A stretch of 64,000 nucleotides of DNA. Origin: an uncultured Bacteroidota bacterium. Lineage in GTDB: Bacteria; Bacteroidota; Bacteroidia; NS11-12g; UBA9320. The first letter of the stretch is position 1. Every line of letters starts with the position of its first letter. Of the stretch, positions 16,808 to 42,229 are shown in pieces. Location: NCBI GenBank assembly GCA_937124965.1, contig CAKZLB010000013.1:186001-250000 (forward strand). Reading direction: 5' to 3'. Made by a program: the position numbers and the translations under genes. The notes beneath the pieces are model-generated. The model did no database searches, had not been told where the DNA came from, and saw only the letters and a list, made by a program, of their open reading frames with translations.

Positions 16808-18886
16808 CTAATATCCTCCAGACCAGCGCCTTAAGAACCATTCGATTCCAAAAAGTGTAAAGATTATAAAAAATAGCCAGCGTAGACTTATTAAGTCTTT
16901 AAATCTGCCACTCTCTTTGACGACACTAACAGCATTGGGTTTTTCCAACAAACGTTTAGCAAGTTGCGACCATTCTTCTTTATAGAAACGTTGACCACCA
17001 GTTTCTTCAGCAAGTTGGTTTAATAGTCTGTAGTCAGCGGTTAAATTTTGGCTTTCTAGTTGAAGCTCACGAACAACGAAACTTCCATTTTCCTTAAAAC
17101 TTTTACCATTGTATTGAGCCGTAGCATTAAACGAATACTGTCCTGATGGTAACGAACCCACAGAATACCTATAAGATCCAGCTTGTGGAACTAACGTGTA
17201 ATCAAAGGTGGTTCCATCATCGTTTGTTAATTGAACAGTTACAGTGGCATCACCCGTAAATTCGTAACTATCGTTGTACACCTCTCCAATAAATGAAATC
17301 CTTTCATTCTCATCAAAAGTGCGGGATGACGTATAAAGCTTAAACTTCCGTTTATCATCTTTCAAGGCTAAGTACTGAATACTTTTCCTCAAAAGCCCGT
17401 CCACTAAATCGGTATTGTCATTTTCCTCAAAGTCGTTAAACCGCCATCTCCAAATACCTTCTCCGGTGCAAACCCCAGTTCGGTAGCCTTCTTGATTATT
17501 AAAAAACCAAAGTGGCATTTTTGTCTCAACGCTTCCAATTTTCTGATAGGCCAGAACCGTATTTTCTGCAGGTGCAGAATACTCTCCAAACGGAGTCGTT
17601 AATGGAGCGGCATTTTCTAGAAAATCTTTTAGGTCACTTTTCAAATCAAATAAGCTAAACCCTTTATTACCAGAAGCAAGCGCTTGATTAAAGTTTCTCC
17701 TATTACCGTTTATTTGGATACCAATTCCTAATCGATTTAATAGGCCGACATTCGTTTGTGTCCCTAAAATAGTTAGCAATGGTAGTTTTAGTTCTTTTGC
17801 TGATTGTAAATAATTGAACTCATAGGAATTTACCGGCAATTGGTGACTTATAATTAAATCAAAGTTATTTTTATCGAGCTTGTCAAACATCCCAATCTGC
17901 ACCGTCAACTCGTACTGATCATTTTTACTAATTGCATTTCTCAATACAGCCACATCTGGATGTGGAGAATGTGCAATTAATAGAATTTTTTGCTTCACAT
18001 CTAAAACGTCTGTATAGACTGTTCGGTAATTGTTTAAAGTATTCTGCTCTCCATTGATTGTATTAAGTTTAACGGTTAACTGCTTATTGCCCACCTTATT
18101 GGCTTTTACCATAAACTTGTGGGTTGCCGTAAATCGCTCATTTGACACCTTAAGTAACTTGCTATCTAATTTTCGCTTATTGTCCCAAATACTAAGCTCA
18201 ACATTCTCTCCCGAGCATTTACTAGCATTCATAACGACTTCGACAGGAAACTCATTTCCAAGAAAAGTTACAGAATTCGTCTTTGCACTGTAAATAGAAA
18301 TATCCTTTTGAATAGTAGTATCTCCTAAAGATACGGTGTATGTCTCCAAACCAGATTGTTGGGCACTAAACATTGGATTTGCTCCACGATTGTAGATACC
18401 ATCCGAAACGACAACTACTGCAGAAGCATTTCGTCCTCCATATAACTTTTTAATATCGCTATACGGTTTTGATAAATCGGTAATGACGTCATTAAACCTC
18501 ATAGAACTTAATGGCCCGTTTAATTCCACAACATCATACTTTTCCGAAACTGCGTCATTAAACTGAATTAAATCCTTTGATAATTGGCTAGCAACATACG
18601 CACTATCACCACCATTTAACATTGACTCAGAATTGTCGACGTACAAATAAACAACAGGTTTCTCGATCGTTTTATCTAAGTATTTTAATAATGGATTAAG
18701 TATTAGGAGCGCTAAAAAAGTTACGCTCAAAAAACGGAGGACTACTTGTGTCCATATCAACACCTTACTTTTAGCATCCTGTTGACCAATATTTCGTTGA
18801 TATAAAATATAACTAAAAAGCAGTCCACAAAGGATGCACAAGGCTAAAAACCAACTGGGTTGCTCTATTATTAAATCTATACTCAA
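16808..18886 (-). CDS. Membrane-anchored VWA-domain protein
   Basis: 692 residues, without an assigned role. Two N-terminal transmembrane segments (about residues 12-28 and 45-65) are followed by a von Willebrand A domain with the MIDAS motif DNSES near residue 83 and VVVSDG near 158. The middle and C-terminal parts look like Ig-like and glutamine-amidotransferase-like domains; one transmembrane helix follows near 670 and the C terminus ends in RRWSGGY. The layout (TM-VWA-periplasmic domains-TM) is known for Bacteroidota proteins of unknown function related to aerotolerance-type (Bat) proteins. Not linked to bat genes here. Probably monocistronic. Confidence 0.75.
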   Translation of the reverse strand: MSIDLIIEQPSWFLALCILCGLLFSYILYQRNIGQQDAKSKVLIWTQVVLRFLSVTFLALLILNPLLKYLDKTIEKPVVYLYVDNSESMLNGGDSAYVASQLSKDLIQFNDAVSEKYDVVELNGPLSSMRFNDVITDLSKPYSDIKKLYGGRNASAVVVVSDGIYNRGANPMFSAQQSGLETYTVSLGDTTIQKDISIYSAKTNSVTFLGNEFPVEVVMNASKCSGENVELSIWDNKRKLDSKLLKVSNERFTATHKFMVKANKVGNKQLTVKLNTINGEQNTLNNYRTVYTDVLDVKQKILLIAHSPHPDVAVLRNAISKNDQYELTVQIGMFDKLDKNNFDLIISHQLPVNSYEFNYLQSAKELKLPLLTILGTQTNVGLLNRLGIGIQINGNRRNFNQALASGNKGFSLFDLKSDLKDFLENAAPLTTPFGEYSAPAENTVLAYQKIGSVETKMPLWFFNNQEGYRTGVCTGEGIWRWRFNDFEENDNTDLVDGLLRKSIQYLALKDDKRKFKLYTSSRTFDENERISFIGEVYNDSYEFTGDATVTVQLTNDDGTTFDYTLVPQAGSYRYSVGSLPSGQYSFNATAQYNGKSFKENGSFVVRELQLESQNLTADYRLLNQLAEETGGQRFYKEEWSQLAKRLLEKPNAVSVVKESGRFKDLISLRWLFFIIFTLFGIEWFLRRWSGGY

Positions 18887-27518: not shown

Positions 27519-29687
27519 ATGTTTTCTTTTGAAGAAAATATCATCATTGTGCTTCAAGCTGTCGTAAAGAAAGGAAAAGTATTAGCCGAAAGAGTTCCAA
27601 CACCAAACGTTTCACCTGGCAATGTTCTAATTAAGGTCGTTAATAGCTGTATTAGTGCTGGTACTGAAATGAGCAACGTTTCTGAAACGGGAAAATCATT
27701 AATAAAAAGAGCATTGGAGCAACCTGAAGAGGTTCGAAACGCTTTAAACTTTGCCCGTGAAAATGGCATTTTAAAAACTATTGCACGTATTAGAGGCACA
27801 GTTGAAGGTGGAAAACCGACTGGTTATTCCATCTCAGGAATTGTTATCGCAGTAGGAAATGGGGTAAGAGATTTCAGTGTTGGTGACCATGTTACTGCTG
27901 CTGGTGCAGGAATAGCAAACCATGCCGAATACGTCGATGTTCCTGTAAACTTGGTAATGCCCATGCCTAATGGAATGGACTTCAAACTCGCATCAACTGT
28001 GACTTTAGGAGGTATTGCAATGCAAGGTGTACGTCGGGCAGAACTATCACTTGGTGAAATTTGTGTTGTTCAGGGTGCTGGTATTCTAGGGTTGCTTGCG
28101 CAACAAATGCTTCAAGCAGCTGGAGTGCGTACAATTGTTATTGACATAGACGATCATCGATTAGGTATTGCAAAAGAACTTGGTGCAGAATTAATTCTAA
28201 ACCCAAACAACGAGGACGTCATAAAGAGTGTTGAAGCACTGAGCAATGGACATGGTGCTGATGCTGTTTTGTTTACAGCAGCAACATATAGTAGTGACCC
28301 TTTATCTGTTGCATTCAAGATGTGTAAGCGCAAAGGGCGCGTCGTTCTTGTTGGAGTTTCAGGAATGGAAATCAAACGAGCGGATATTTACAACAAGGAA
28401 TTAGACTTTTTAATATCAACCAGTTATGGTCCTGGTAGGTATGACGATACATATGAAAAAAAGGGATTAGATTATCCATATGCATATGTTCGGTGGACGG
28501 AAAATCGAAACATGACAGAGTATTTAAGGCTGGTTCATGTTGGCCAAATTAATCTAGTTCCTTTGATGGACGCTGTTTATCCAATCGAGCAAGTTGAAGA
28601 AGCATTTAACATTTTAAAACATGGTGAAGACCCAAAACCAATAATTTCAATTCTTGACTATGGAGTATCAGTTCCGAATTTCAATGAAAAAGTTAAGGAA
28701 CATAAGATTGAATTCAAACAAACCTCGTCAAGTAATTCAATCATCAATGTAGCAATGGTAGGTGCTGGTAGTTTTGCTACAGGAATGCATTTACCGAATT
28801 TACAGCGTTTAAATCAGAAGTATAAAATAAAGGCAATCGTAAATCGAACAGGCCAAAAGGCAAAAGCTGTTGGGGAGCAGTATAACGTTGATTATGTAAC
28901 TTCGAATATCGATGACGTGCTGAATGATGAATCAGTTGACTTAATAATGATCACCACTCAACATGGGAATCATGGAGAATTGGTGCTCAAAAGTCTTAAA
29001 GCAGGAAAGAATGTTTTTGTTGAAAAACCTCTTTGTACTCGAAAGGAGGAATTAGAAGAAATAAAAAACTTTTATGCAAATGCAAGTAAACCACCAATGT
29101 TAATGGTTGGGTTTAATAGGCGTTTCAGTCCTTGTATTGTGGAAGCCAAAAAGCATATTAAAGGTCGAGTTAACCCGATGATTATAAATTATCGCATGAA
29201 TGCTGGTTATATCCCCCTCGATCATTGGACTCACGAGCATGGTGGACGAATTGTTGGTGAGGCATGTCATATTATTGATTTAATGAGTGCGTTAACAAAC
29301 AGTAAATTGGTAAGCTATAGTTCAGATCATATTAGTCCAACGACAGGAAAAATTAGTAAACATGACAATCGCAGTATTACGTTGAAATACGAAGATGGTT
29401 CAGTTTGTACACTTCAGTATTTTGCCGTTGGAAGTAAAAAGTTACCGAAGGAATACTTAGAGGTTCACTTTGATGAAAAGAGTATTGTGATGGAAGATTA
29501 CAAAACACTTAAGGGCTATGGAGTGAATTTAAAATCCTTTAATAGTGCGATGAGTAACAAAGGTCAGTATGAAGAATTGATAGCTCTTCATGAAGCTCTG
29601 GTAAACACGAAAGAATGGCCAATTCCGTTATGGGACATGATTCAAACAACTGCTGTAACTTTTGAAATAGAAGATTCGATTGTCTAA
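27519..29687 (+). CDS. Two-domain oxidoreductase (alcohol dehydrogenase-like + Gfo/Idh/MocA)
   Basis: 722 residues. The N-terminal half (to about 375) is a medium-chain dehydrogenase with VVQGAGILGLLAQQM near 180 binding NAD(P). The C-terminal half starts at about 405 with VAMVGAGSFATGMHLPNL, a Gfo/Idh/MocA Rossmann motif, and continues with FVEKPLCTRKEEL and WTHEHGGRIVGEACHIIDLM. This fused architecture is characteristic of extracellular-polysaccharide clusters, where it probably converts a nucleotide-sugar or its alcohol. The ATG at 27519 is the first start, but a downstream GTG near 27549 (giving LQAVVKKG) could also serve. It opens the polysaccharide locus and overlaps the next gene by eight bases. 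Confidence 0.88.
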   Translation: MFSFEENIIIVLQAVVKKGKVLAERVPTPNVSPGNVLIKVVNSCISAGTEMSNVSETGKSLIKRALEQPEEVRNALNFARENGILKTIARIRGTVEGGKPTGYSISGIVIAVGNGVRDFSVGDHVTAAGAGIANHAEYVDVPVNLVMPMPNGMDFKLASTVTLGGIAMQGVRRAELSLGEICVVQGAGILGLLAQQMLQAAGVRTIVIDIDDHRLGIAKELGAELILNPNNEDVIKSVEALSNGHGADAVLFTAATYSSDPLSVAFKMCKRKGRVVLVGVSGMEIKRADIYNKELDFLISTSYGPGRYDDTYEKKGLDYPYAYVRWTENRNMTEYLRLVHVGQINLVPLMDAVYPIEQVEEAFNILKHGEDPKPIISILDYGVSVPNFNEKVKEHKIEFKQTSSSNSIINVAMVGAGSFATGMHLPNLQRLNQKYKIKAIVNRTGQKAKAVGEQYNVDYVTSNIDDVLNDESVDLIMITTQHGNHGELVLKSLKAGKNVFVEKPLCTRKEELEEIKNFYANASKPPMLMVGFNRRFSPCIVEAKKHIKGRVNPMIINYRMNAGYIPLDHWTHEHGGRIVGEACHIIDLMSALTNSKLVSYSSDHISPTTGKISKHDNRSITLKYEDGSVCTLQYFAVGSKKLPKEYLEVHFDEKSIVMEDYKTLKGYGVNLKSFNSAMSNKGQYEELIALHEALVNTKEWPIPLWDMIQTTAVTFEIEDSIV

Positions 29688-32448: not shown

Positions 32449-34960
32449 ATGAAAATATTTCTATTGCTTTTGTCTTTCGTCTTTTGGCAAAACACTTTTG
32501 GACAATCATTTTTTCAAAAATTATCTTTACCAAATGATATCGTTGAATTTAGAAGCGTCAAGGTTCAAGGTCAGAAACTCTTCACAGTCGGCTCTAAAGG
32601 TGATAGCCTTTTATTTTGTCGATTTGATCTTAATGGTAATATAGAATGGGTCAAAGCATACAATCCTTCTAAAAAGAAAATTGCCGTCTCTGCTGTTTTG
32701 GAAACCCTGTCAGAAAATAGATTGATTTTTTGCGGCACCTGGAAAAACTCAAATAATTGGAGCGACACTAATACTTTTTTATGAATCTGTGACACTAGTG
32801 GTCAGATTATAAGTGAGGTTCAGTTCAATCCCGGAGTAGTATTTTATAAAAGCACCATAAAACAAATTGACCAAAATAATATTTTTTTGGCTATGAATTT
32901 TTGGAGTGATGCAACTAGCTCTAATAATGATTTAATCGTTGCTGTTCTAAACATTCAGGATTTACAATTAAGAAATGTCTCTAAGCAGTTTCACTCAAGT
33001 AATGCGGACGATTTTCTATCGATTTGTTTTGACAATGACGCTTTCATATACACAACTCCTAGATGTCAGATTGGAGGGGCTGGAGTTCTTAATAACAAAC
33101 CAATGATTTCAAAATTTGACACTTCAAGAAATCTAATATGATCGATGTATTACGTAGCATCTAGCACCCAGCAGTCACAACTTTATGTTCAAGATATTTT
33201 AATCAAAGATGAATATATTTATTTTGATTGGAATGGAAATCCGACTGAAAAAACACCAAGTAATGTATTTGGATTTATTATGTCGGATTCTGTAGGAACG
33301 CCTAAATGGGGCTATCAATACTCAAGTTCATTAACATATCCAATACCCATAAAAAGTCTTTTAATTAAAGACTCAAGTTATACGTTTGGATTTAATCAAA
33401 TCTCTTTAAACAAACGGTTGTTTTATGCAAAACTTTCAAAAGACGGCGGTCTAGATTCTATAACTTTGTTTGGGTCTAAAGATGTCAATTATTTAGTTTA
33501 TAATGGTATCGAGTTTAAGAATTCCATGTATTTATGCGGAAAGGCAGATCAGAAGGCCTTTGTAATGAGGGTTTCAAATAAAAAATTACCACCATGCATG
33601 CCTCAAGAAGGGATAAGAATTCAGCAAAAAACAAACATTATTACCTCTAATAAAAAGTTTGTTGAATACAACGCAAATATCAATATCAACAACACTAAAT
33701 CATCATACTCTAGTAGCGCTTTAACTAGTGCGTGTCAAGACGTGAAAATTATCCTCGACACGTTAAATTGCAAAAATGTTTTAGAAATTTCAGGGTGATA
33801 TGATAAAGTTCTTTGGAGCACGGGAGACACCTCAAATTCGATAAATGTTAAAAAATCAGGAAAATACTGGGTTAGGCTGCATAAGGACTGCTGCTATGCT
33901 TATGACACTATTGACGTCACCGTTCATTCAATATCCAAGCCTGTTGCTCGCTGCAAAAAAGTTTCTGCATCTATTGGAGCTGATTCCAAAGTAATTGTCG
34001 AACCCGTCATATTCGACAATGGAAGTTTTGACAGCTGCGGTCAATTATCATTCTTGATTTCAAAAGATACTTTTACATGCGACGATTTAGGGACAAACCA
34101 AATTACCTTTATTGTGACAAATTCGTCTGGGTTGTCAGATACATACTACACAACAATAGAAATAATAGATACAAACTCGATAAATCTAAAATGCAAGGAC
34201 ATAACTGTCAAGTTGGACGATTTCGGGAAAGCCCACATAAATTATGACGCAATCGATTCTTTGTCAGTTTTGCCATGTCGGTCACTTACATACTCCTTTT
34301 CTCAAGACAGTTTTCTTTGTGATGACATTGGACTTAATAAAATCACTCTTACAGTTAAAGACACCACAGGGAATACCGCACAATGTTTATCAAATATTAC
34401 AGTTGTGGATAGTCTCCCCCAATGCTTTGTGCAAAGATTTAATTGTTTACCTTGACTCAAATGGTGAAGCGTCAATTACAGTTGATGAGATTGACGACGG
34501 TAGTTACGATAATTGTACAGTCAGTAAACTAGCTGCATCTAACCTTAAGTTCACATGCGATGATGTTACGAAACCTGTTGACGTAACTTTATACGTTACT
34601 GACAATTCTAATAACATAGATAGTTGTGTTTCAAAAATCACCGTTATTGACCCTGCAAAAGAAAACTGTGTATTCAGCAAACTAGTATTCACTTTCCCAA
34701 ACGCATTTTCTCCTAACAAGGATGACCTTAATGACGTTTTATGGCATAAAAACTCGAACATTGAAGTCGATGAACTAAAAGTATACAACCGATGGGGTGA
34801 GCAAATCTACTCTTACCAGCGAAAAGGCAAACCTTGGGATGGAACTTACATGGACGAGTTTGTTCAAAATGGTCTTTATCTTTGGGTTGCAACATTCCAC
34901 TCTATTAAAAACTCCAGATTAAAAGATAAAAATAGTGGCCATGTTCTAGTTATACGATAA
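32449..34960 (+). pseudogene. Decayed type IX-secreted protein gene (three in-frame TGA, one frameshift)
   Basis: The same reading frame runs from ATG 32449 (signal peptide ending TFGQ) to about 34415, interrupted by TGA at 32782, 33139 and 33796. After a C5 run (34416-34420) the frame shifts by one and continues to TAA at 34960. The parts are coherent: a signal peptide, SBBP/propeller-like strands, an STG-D turn (LWSTGDTSNS), then three modules of roughly 75 residues (C-K-D-ITVKLDDFGKA type, each ending in TVxDxxGN) and the C-terminal sorting domain FPNAFSPNKDDLNDV and YNRWGEQIYSY. At the second TGA the expected residue is Trp (family pattern DTxGNLIWS). Most simply a pseudogene. It precedes the heparinase-like gene. 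Confidence 0.8.
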
Positions 34961-39584: not shown

Positions 39585-42098
39585 TTAAGCTTCTTTCAGT
39601 TCCTTAGCCTCTTTAACTAACCATCCACCGATTAGTAGCAAAATTAAAATAGAACTAGCAAGCGACACTCGTTCACCTGTCTCAAATGTTTCTGGGTGAA
39701 ACTCAAATTTTATTTCATATTGTCCAGCAGGAACACGCATTGCTCTTAGTAAATAGTTAGCTCTAATATGATTAAAACCATCAAGGTCTACAACTTTACC
39801 ATCAATAGTTGCTGTCCACCCTTTATTAGGGCCATACCAAATTTCAGAGAAAACCACAAACTCTTCCTGATCACAATTTACTGAATACACCAATCGATTT
39901 GGATCGTATTGCGTCAATGCAATGGAGCGATTCGTGTTACTATCTACTGCGTGATCTTTTAAGTCTGCGGTATAGGCGCCAAAGTCTTTATCGTTTACAA
40001 CTGCTTTACTAACAGAGCGAAAATTTTCTCGAATAGCATTTAGCTCTTCAGTAGCTGAATTTACATGTATGAAACTATCAATAAACCATGCGTTGCCAAG
40101 AGCACCTTGGTTTGGATACAACCTCATATCTTTATCGATCAGATACTTTGTATTAAACATGTCTAATACGTCATAAGAGATTCCTCGCGATGAAGCAAAA
40201 ACACTGTCGATAACATCTTGAATACGACTCATCTTAACAGCACTATAACCTCCTACCGTGTTATGGAAATAACTTGTATTACTTGAACTAAATGTGTTAA
40301 TCGACAAGTCAAAGACTCTATAGTATCCTCTTCCATTAGGTTCCATTTGATAAATCTGTTGATCAACAGGTCTCATAGTAAATGGTTTTTCTTGTTTTTT
40401 CTTAGAAACAAAGTTGTCTTCATTAAGATACTTTTTGTCAACCGAAACTAGATCAGCAACTATAAATATTCCTATTAAAGCAACTACATATTCTGTCTTC
40501 AGTTTCTTAGTTATCGCAAGCCATAAAGCACCAGCTCCTGCCAAAATGAACAACAAACTTCGCAAAGCACTTTCTTTTAGATATTGTTCTCTGCTTTCTT
40601 TTAGTGCATCCATAAACTGGTCATACTGCATTTGGTTTCCGTTAAAATACTGGGATAAGAAGTTTCCGTCGCTAATATGATCAAAGGAGAACAATGTACC
40701 GCCAAACATCCAAATAATAGCTGCTACTCCTCCAACAATACCAGTAGCTATGTAAACTACTTTAAGTTTTTCTTCTTTGGTCTTTTTTGATGTCAGTAAT
40801 ACAGACAGACCAGCTATTCCCAATATTGGGTAGAAAATAGACGCCACGCCCATGGCCGAATTGTGTGCTCGAAAGATGTTGTATTTTGGAAAATGTTCGA
40901 AAAATATTTCATTAAACCACGTTAAATATTTACCCATAGAGAGAAAGGCAATAACTACCGCTGCCGCAACTATGCCCCATTTCCAGCCAGTGTTCGGAAG
41001 TAAAATCAGACCAATTACTAGAAGTAATGTTACGATTGCTCCAAAATAAACTGGTCCGCTCGTTGACTCCCCACCGCCCCAATACAATGGAACTCGTACA
41101 GGCTTTTTCCCTTGGCCAAAAAACTTTGCAATTTCATAATCAGAGTTAACTTCTTCGCCGCTACTTCCTCCAACTATCCCAGGTATAAAGGTTGCGAGCA
41201 TATCGTTTCGATTGTTGCTCCATAGCATTGCGTAATCCCAATCTAGCCCCTCACCTGCTTCAGCGGTATCATCACCAGCGTTTGCCTTTCGCTCAGCGGC
41301 TTCTCGTTTCAAATCAGAGTTGCCACGCATCGTATCTTTTGAGTACTCTAATGTAGTATAAATCTTAGAAAAAGACGGTCCGACAGCAAGAATTCCACAG
41401 ATTAGCAATACTGAAGCACCTTTGAGGTATCCAACAATTTCACCATTTTTTGCAGCGAAAAACAAATAGACAATCATAAAAAACAACATCCCAATACCAA
41501 AGTAATAGGTCATTTGATAATGATTTGCAGCAATGTTTAAGCTCATTGCCAACAAGAATAGGGCTGCTCCTTTGAGGTAATTGTGTTGCTTTAAGATTAA
41601 ATATACTCCGGCTAATGCGAGCGGTAAATATGATAATGCTCTAAACTTGGAAGTGTGCCCCTCGGCATAGAGTATCATATTATTTGTAGAAAGTGAGAAC
41701 GCAAGTCCACCGACTATTGCAATCCAGCGATCGACCCCCATAACTAACATGAGTATATAAAATGAAAAAGCAGCAACAAAGAACCAGCTTATTGGTGCCC
41801 CTAAAAAAAGTTGCATTGCAGGTTCGATAAATCGTCTTATTAAGTTTGAATTTTGAGGAGAACTTATTTGGTACGTTGGCATACCTCCAAACATGGCATT
41901 TGTCCAAAGCGTATAATCACCTGTTTTTTCGTGATAATCAATAGACTCCTTTGTCATTCCCTTACCCTGTAAAATATCCCGTTGTTCAACGACTTTTCCG
42001 TTTAGTTGTGGGTGGAAATACGCAGCAAAAACTGCAAGAAATATCCCCATTGCAATCAGATGAGGTTTAGCGAGTGTCCAAATGTGTTTAAAATTCAT
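39585..42098 (-). CDS. YfhO-family multi-pass membrane protein
   Basis: About 837 residues from the ATG at 42098 (an upstream TTG at 42107 is less likely). About a dozen transmembrane segments fill residues 10-560, with a large periplasmic loop bearing SNNRNDMLATFIPG near 300 and MPTYQIS near 75. The C-terminal 250 residues are soluble and end with one more helix and a Glu/Lys tail. The overall shape matches the YfhO (GT-C-like) family, linked in other bacteria to glycosylation of lipoteichoic acid. Here it precedes wecB, so it may move or transfer lipid-linked sugars; not proven. Confidence 0.85.
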   Translation of the reverse strand: MNFKHIWTLAKPHLIAMGIFLAVFAAYFHPQLNGKVVEQRDILQGKGMTKESIDYHEKTGDYTLWTNAMFGGMPTYQISSPQNSNLIRRFIEPAMQLFLGAPISWFFVAAFSFYILMLVMGVDRWIAIVGGLAFSLSTNNMILYAEGHTSKFRALSYLPLALAGVYLILKQHNYLKGAALFLLAMSLNIAANHYQMTYYFGIGMLFFMIVYLFFAAKNGEIVGYLKGASVLLICGILAVGPSFSKIYTTLEYSKDTMRGNSDLKREAAERKANAGDDTAEAGEGLDWDYAMLWSNNRNDMLATFIPGIVGGSSGEEVNSDYEIAKFFGQGKKPVRVPLYWGGGESTSGPVYFGAIVTLLLVIGLILLPNTGWKWGIVAAAVVIAFLSMGKYLTWFNEIFFEHFPKYNIFRAHNSAMGVASIFYPILGIAGLSVLLTSKKTKEEKLKVVYIATGIVGGVAAIIWMFGGTLFSFDHISDGNFLSQYFNGNQMQYDQFMDALKESREQYLKESALRSLLFILAGAGALWLAITKKLKTEYVVALIGIFIVADLVSVDKKYLNEDNFVSKKKQEKPFTMRPVDQQIYQMEPNGRGYYRVFDLSINTFSSSNTSYFHNTVGGYSAVKMSRIQDVIDSVFASSRGISYDVLDMFNTKYLIDKDMRLYPNQGALGNAWFIDSFIHVNSATEELNAIRENFRSVSKAVVNDKDFGAYTADLKDHAVDSNTNRSIALTQYDPNRLVYSVNCDQEEFVVFSEIWYGPNKGWTATIDGKVVDLDGFNHIRANYLLRAMRVPAGQYEIKFEFHPETFETGERVSLASSILILLLIGGWLVKEAKELKEA

Positions 42099-42229
42099 GG
42101 AATACAATTAACAAATAGTAAAACTCGTGCAAAATACAAGAGTTTCATTCAACATCAATTATCTGCTTATCAAAAATTAATTTTAATGATTTTTTCTCAA
42201 CACATACATGACACCATCAGTCCCTTTTT

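Follow-up and report, generated by a model that had tools for sequence, protein, structure and literature searches.

In an environmental bacterium of the Bacteroidota type, the gene at 32449–34960 is best read as a young pseudogene, formerly an accessory gene for a protein secreted by the type IX secretion system (T9SS); we give this reading a probability of about 0.9. Positions refer to the window, the whole stretch of 64,000 nucleotides that was analysed. On this reading, a gene for a type IX-secreted protein would have fallen out of use and gathered four lesions, three of them nonsense changes and the fourth a change of frame. Translation from 32449 should end after 111 codons, and a product of that length would be without the sorting domain required for type IX export; the gene would have lost its function.

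The broken gene and its probable former product

The features of the gene, all on the forward strand, are as follows.

32449–34960, forward strand: the whole broken gene, with a signal-peptide-like start, a probable beta-propeller region, Ig-like and HYR-like repeats and a type B sorting domain
32449–32508, forward strand: start codon and signal-peptide-like N terminus, the signal peptide being judged by eye
32509–33723, forward strand: N-terminal region with propeller-like repeats, its start modelled as beta strands, with distant relatives in the class
32782–32784, forward strand: first in-frame TGA, codon 112, next base A
33139–33141, forward strand: second in-frame TGA, codon 231, next base T
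33727–34413, forward strand: Ig-like segment, then HYR-like repeats, the source of most matches in relatives
33796–33798, forward strand: third in-frame TGA, codon 450, next base T, within the Ig-like segment
34416–34420, forward strand: C5 run, site of the reading-frame change
34691–34939, forward strand: type IX secretion type B sorting domain (CHU_C / TIGR04131), in the second frame

The first point to establish is that there is a frame to be broken. From the ATG at 32449, frame +1 is coherent to ∼34413, a distance of 655 codons. Over these 1965 bases it contains three stops, each of them TGA (32782, 33139 and 33796), compared with 41, 67, 50, 31 and 54 stops in the five other frames, and an open frame with 3 stops where the others have 31–67 is beyond chance. 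The second frame, entered near the C5 run, terminates at the TAA at 34958–34960. The start, the three TGA codons, the C5 run and the sorting domain that follows in another frame had all been located in the original prediction, and every one of these coordinates was confirmed, together with the absence of any TAA or TAG before the frame change.

The coding signal was measured with a codon model built from 33 genes of the window, which themselves score 0.01–0.31. All four segments delimited by the lesions have a positive codon-usage score in the gene frame, at 0.06–0.15 bits per codon, and a negative one in the two other frames; for the segment 3′ of the frame change, the score in the frame that it belongs to is 0.24. 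First-position G+C in the four segments is 0.33–0.38, against 0.46 in the other ORFs of the window, a difference which may reflect composition or decay.

The sorting domain is clearly recognised, both by the Pfam family CHU_C (PF13585; E 4.8e-15, 55.9 bits, cut-off 27) and by the NCBIfam family TIGR04131 (E 3.1e-11, 43.3 bits, cut-off 35). The HYR match, at 15.1 bits, lies under the Pfam cut-off of 21.7. The propeller-like repeats span the first ∼400 residues. A single-sequence structure model of the N-terminal region gave a mean pLDDT of 43.8; values of ∼50–81 were reached only by the first ∼130 residues, which are modelled as beta strands with low to moderate confidence, and the remainder of the region was not resolved. 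The N-terminal region is probably a beta-propeller. The domain content suggests that the former product was secreted, exported by the type IX route and either kept at the cell surface or released, and points to a surface role.

Relatives of the gene are few and distant. The N-terminal region has distant relatives, at 19–26% identity, in 9 of the 394 other genomes of the class set (395 genomes, an even sample of a larger group), and all ten matched stretches, which cover the N-terminal region only, are free of internal stops. Within the order, 9 of the 107 other genomes searched had matches, all of them weak (E 5e-4 to 8e-3). A further search had matches in 37 of 38 other genomes, and most of the matches listed fell in the Ig-like/HYR-like part. 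No close intact copy was found in a scan of genome contigs, in the 107 other order genomes or in the 394 other class genomes, and the read-through protein had no match in the 80 loci compared. A literature search found no paper linking type IX secretion with a pseudogene, a frameshift and the C-terminal domain.

Decay or assembly error

Decay had been put forward as the simplest reading in the original prediction, and it is supported by the presence of four lesions in one otherwise coherent frame and by the normal UGA termination machinery. In the gene frame, 3.8–5.2% of random substitutions create a stop, so that three stops correspond to 57–79 substitutions, or 2.9–4.0% divergence; the Poisson range of 0.62–8.77 stops extends this to 0.6–11.7%. 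These figures assume that no lesion is under selection. Inactivation would then be recent, at ∼3–4% neutral divergence, and a divergence as low as this fits a frame which is still easily readable. Two points were counted against a pseudogene. All three stops are TGA, for which the chance is 2–3%, and the coding signal persists in every segment, as expected of a young pseudogene and also of a gene in use.

It is improbable that the lesions are errors of assembly or consensus and that the living cell carries an unbroken gene. The genome (4.09 Mb) is in 79 contigs and one of the lesions lies at a homopolymer, two points in favour of such errors, but three of the four lesions look like substitutions, whereas error-prone assemblies typically show indels. 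No internal stop was found in 15 of 15 TonB barrels, 41 of 41 CHU_C domains or 150 of 150 scored Por_Secre_tail domains (211 candidates), counts which cover the matched domain only; the CHU_C and Por_Secre_tail domains are short and tell little about the remainder of each gene. Within the window, 17 of the 19 large ORFs tested have a Pfam match, a weak control as these were chosen as long ORFs, and the window genes align with their relatives over most of their length. Since the other domains are without internal stops and most of the large window ORFs match Pfam, four errors clustered in one gene are unlikely. It also counts against assembly error that the homologous locus in a related genome (G004) has several split genes, the counterparts of which are whole in the window.

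The split genes of G004 (loci L080, L082 and L086) comprise obg, the heparinase-like gene, PSP1 and the homolog of the gene at 39585–42107. The match to each of them is broken into at least two pieces, a pattern like that of indel errors in an assembly.

The genome was also searched for other broken genes. Frames shorter than 400 aa account for 2 of the 41 CHU_C matches, namely the broken gene and one other, which was considered as a second broken gene and rejected, being an intact small gene. Six Por_Secre_tail matches have frames of at most 170 aa. The five inspected are three small genes with their own start and two that run off contig ends; the remaining match is 605 bases away from the start of its contig. 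None of the short CHU_C and Por_Secre_tail frames inspected pointed to a further broken secreted gene, which might have hinted at TGA recoding across the genome. The transposase family PF01609, sought as a sample of decaying genes, had no match in the genome.

Decoding of UGA and the C5 run

A second alternative is that low-level readthrough of UGA at all three sites, together with frame switching at the C5 run, yields full-length surface protein in a few cells or molecules, in a regulated or phase-variable manner. We regard this as very improbable. The bases following the stops are A, T and T, whereas known readthrough contexts have C after the stop. Runs of C or G of 5–6 bases are common, with 16 in the window, and C5 runs number nine, the run at 34416–34420 being included in both counts. 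A phase-variable gene was therefore rejected: the C5 run is ordinary, and a frame switch there cannot restore the gene because the three stops lie upstream of any opening by slippage. In PMC7918605, UGA is described as a leaky terminator and many genes with in-frame stops are argued to remain under selection, which would favour the idea. However, the readthrough of 6% per site given there for a B. subtilis reporter becomes 0.02% over three sites, with the frame change still to come.

That UGA is read as Trp, through reassignment or efficient suppression, so that the frame is open up to the frame change, is hardly credible, and would leave the frame change itself without explanation. The release factor RF2 is intact (480 bits, cut-off 370), with its SPF and GGQ motifs. 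The tRNA search, in which 150 of 340 candidates were scored, gave 32 matches, all read by ARAGORN; none of these has a UCA anticodon, and the sole tRNA-Trp has the anticodon CCA. In this tRNA-Trp, position 9 is A, position 24 is G and the anticodon stem is of 5 bp; it has none of the three features (A9C, G24A and a 4-bp anticodon stem) given in PMC13092985 as changes enabling tRNA-Trp(CCA) to read UGA. Selenoprotein machinery was not found either, there being no SelB above the cut-off in the genome (best match 186 bits, cut-off 242) and no UCA-anticodon tRNA among the 32 matches. Furthermore, TGA terminates 5 of 50 other ORFs in the window, including the PNPase gene and an ATGA overlap at 746–749, in a count taken from a mechanical list of ORFs of at least 120 aa from which both ORFs inside the broken gene were excluded.

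The use of TGA as a terminator in the window is rare, the 50 ORFs ending in 36 TAA, 9 TAG and 5 TGA, and this rarity is one of three points in favour of reading UGA as Trp. Another is the residue found in relatives at codon 231. The original prediction had expected a Trp at this codon (33139), and this proved partly correct: Trp is present in three of the seven relatives whose match covers the site, but the rest have E, D, F and A. There are gaps here in two loci (L064 and L071), and a single weak alignment row has R. The two other sites argue against Trp. At codon 112 it is found in none of the nine relatives whose match covers the site and in none of 12 alignment rows; six of the nine have Phe, so that Trp would be a mild change. 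At codon 450 it is found in none of 16 rows. The alignment rows counted at the three codons are not all independent, as several share a source protein or belong to overlapping loci. The count of relatives is drawn from ten loci, seven from the class search and three of the ten from the order search, all other than the gene's own, and omits L071 at codon 112 and L066 at codon 231, where the sites lie outside the reported matches.

The third point is that all of the stops are TGA. The codons of the gene itself give a probability of 0.27–0.30 that a newly arisen stop is TGA, and hence 1.9–2.8% for three of three; the calculation counts the three stops as TGG, which slightly favours TGA. The chance that three stops are all of any one kind is 12–13%, and this is the fairer figure because the all-TGA pattern was chosen after the fact. 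With three stops only, the pattern is weak evidence for recoding. Recoding of UGA was rejected on the combined grounds of RF2, the tRNAs, SelB, the shape of tRNA-Trp, the TGA terminators and the residues at the sites. The suggestion of UGA recoding coupled to phase variation, also made in the original prediction, therefore does not stand.

The locus and comparison with known systems

The broken gene lies among genes for glycosyltransferases, a methyltransferase, a heparinase-like protein and a UDP-GlcNAc 2-epimerase, in a cluster with the Obg gene on one side and, on the other, the DNA polymerase III delta-subunit-like gene and the PSP1 gene. Its two neighbours, the glycosyltransferase and heparinase-like genes, are retained in UBA6063 (L087) in a divergent order. 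The gap between their matched parts is 186 bases there, compared with ∼2.6 kb here, so that the UBA6063 locus has both neighbours but no room for the broken gene. Another locus (L088) retains the heparinase-like gene without that glycosyltransferase, and in G004 and G009 other genes occupy the wider interval from the dehydrogenase to the heparinase-like gene. Because the related loci either have no room for the gene or have other genes, it is an optional extra at this locus. The polysaccharide-synthesis cluster around it is variable and the gene itself apparently accessory; it may have been gained here or lost elsewhere.

Three other genes of the window may be recorded here. At 27519–29687 (forward strand) a zinc-binding-dehydrogenase-like half is fused to a GFO/IDH/MocA oxidoreductase half in one gene; in G002, G004 and G009, too, this gene adjoins the Obg side. 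The gene at 39585–42107 (reverse strand) encodes an 840-aa protein with no Pfam match at E 0.001, which is conserved at 72% in G004 and at 34–63% in L087–L089. A 692-aa ORF at 16808–18886 (reverse strand), likewise with no Pfam match at E 0.001, adjoins a di-haem cytochrome c peroxidase-like (CCP_MauG) gene.

Read as a young pseudogene, the gene offers a clean case of the loss of an accessory type IX-secreted gene within a variable polysaccharide cluster. It has little significance as a mechanism, and serves as a caution against taking a run of TGA stops as a sign of recoding when there are just three of them. Were recoding real, it would be a case of unusual decoding in a genome with RF2 still in place, but the evidence speaks against this.

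The former product resembles other T9SS type B sorting-domain proteins in its C-terminal domain and signal-peptide-like start, with Ig-like and HYR-like repeats here lying upstream of the domain; it differs from them in that its reading frame is interrupted four times ahead of the sorting domain. With bacteria that have reassigned UGA to Trp, as they are described in PMC13092985, the gene has in common its in-frame TGA codons, one of them at a position that is often Trp in relatives. In contrast to those bacteria, the genome has RF2, a normal tRNA-Trp(CCA) and TGA stops, and no tRNA with a UCA anticodon. The gene also resembles young bacterial pseudogenes. Although the three stops here are all of one kind, which is a departure from typical cases, the gene shares with them both the occurrence of several stops and one frame change in a coherent frame and its absence from the related UBA6063 locus, where both neighbours are retained.
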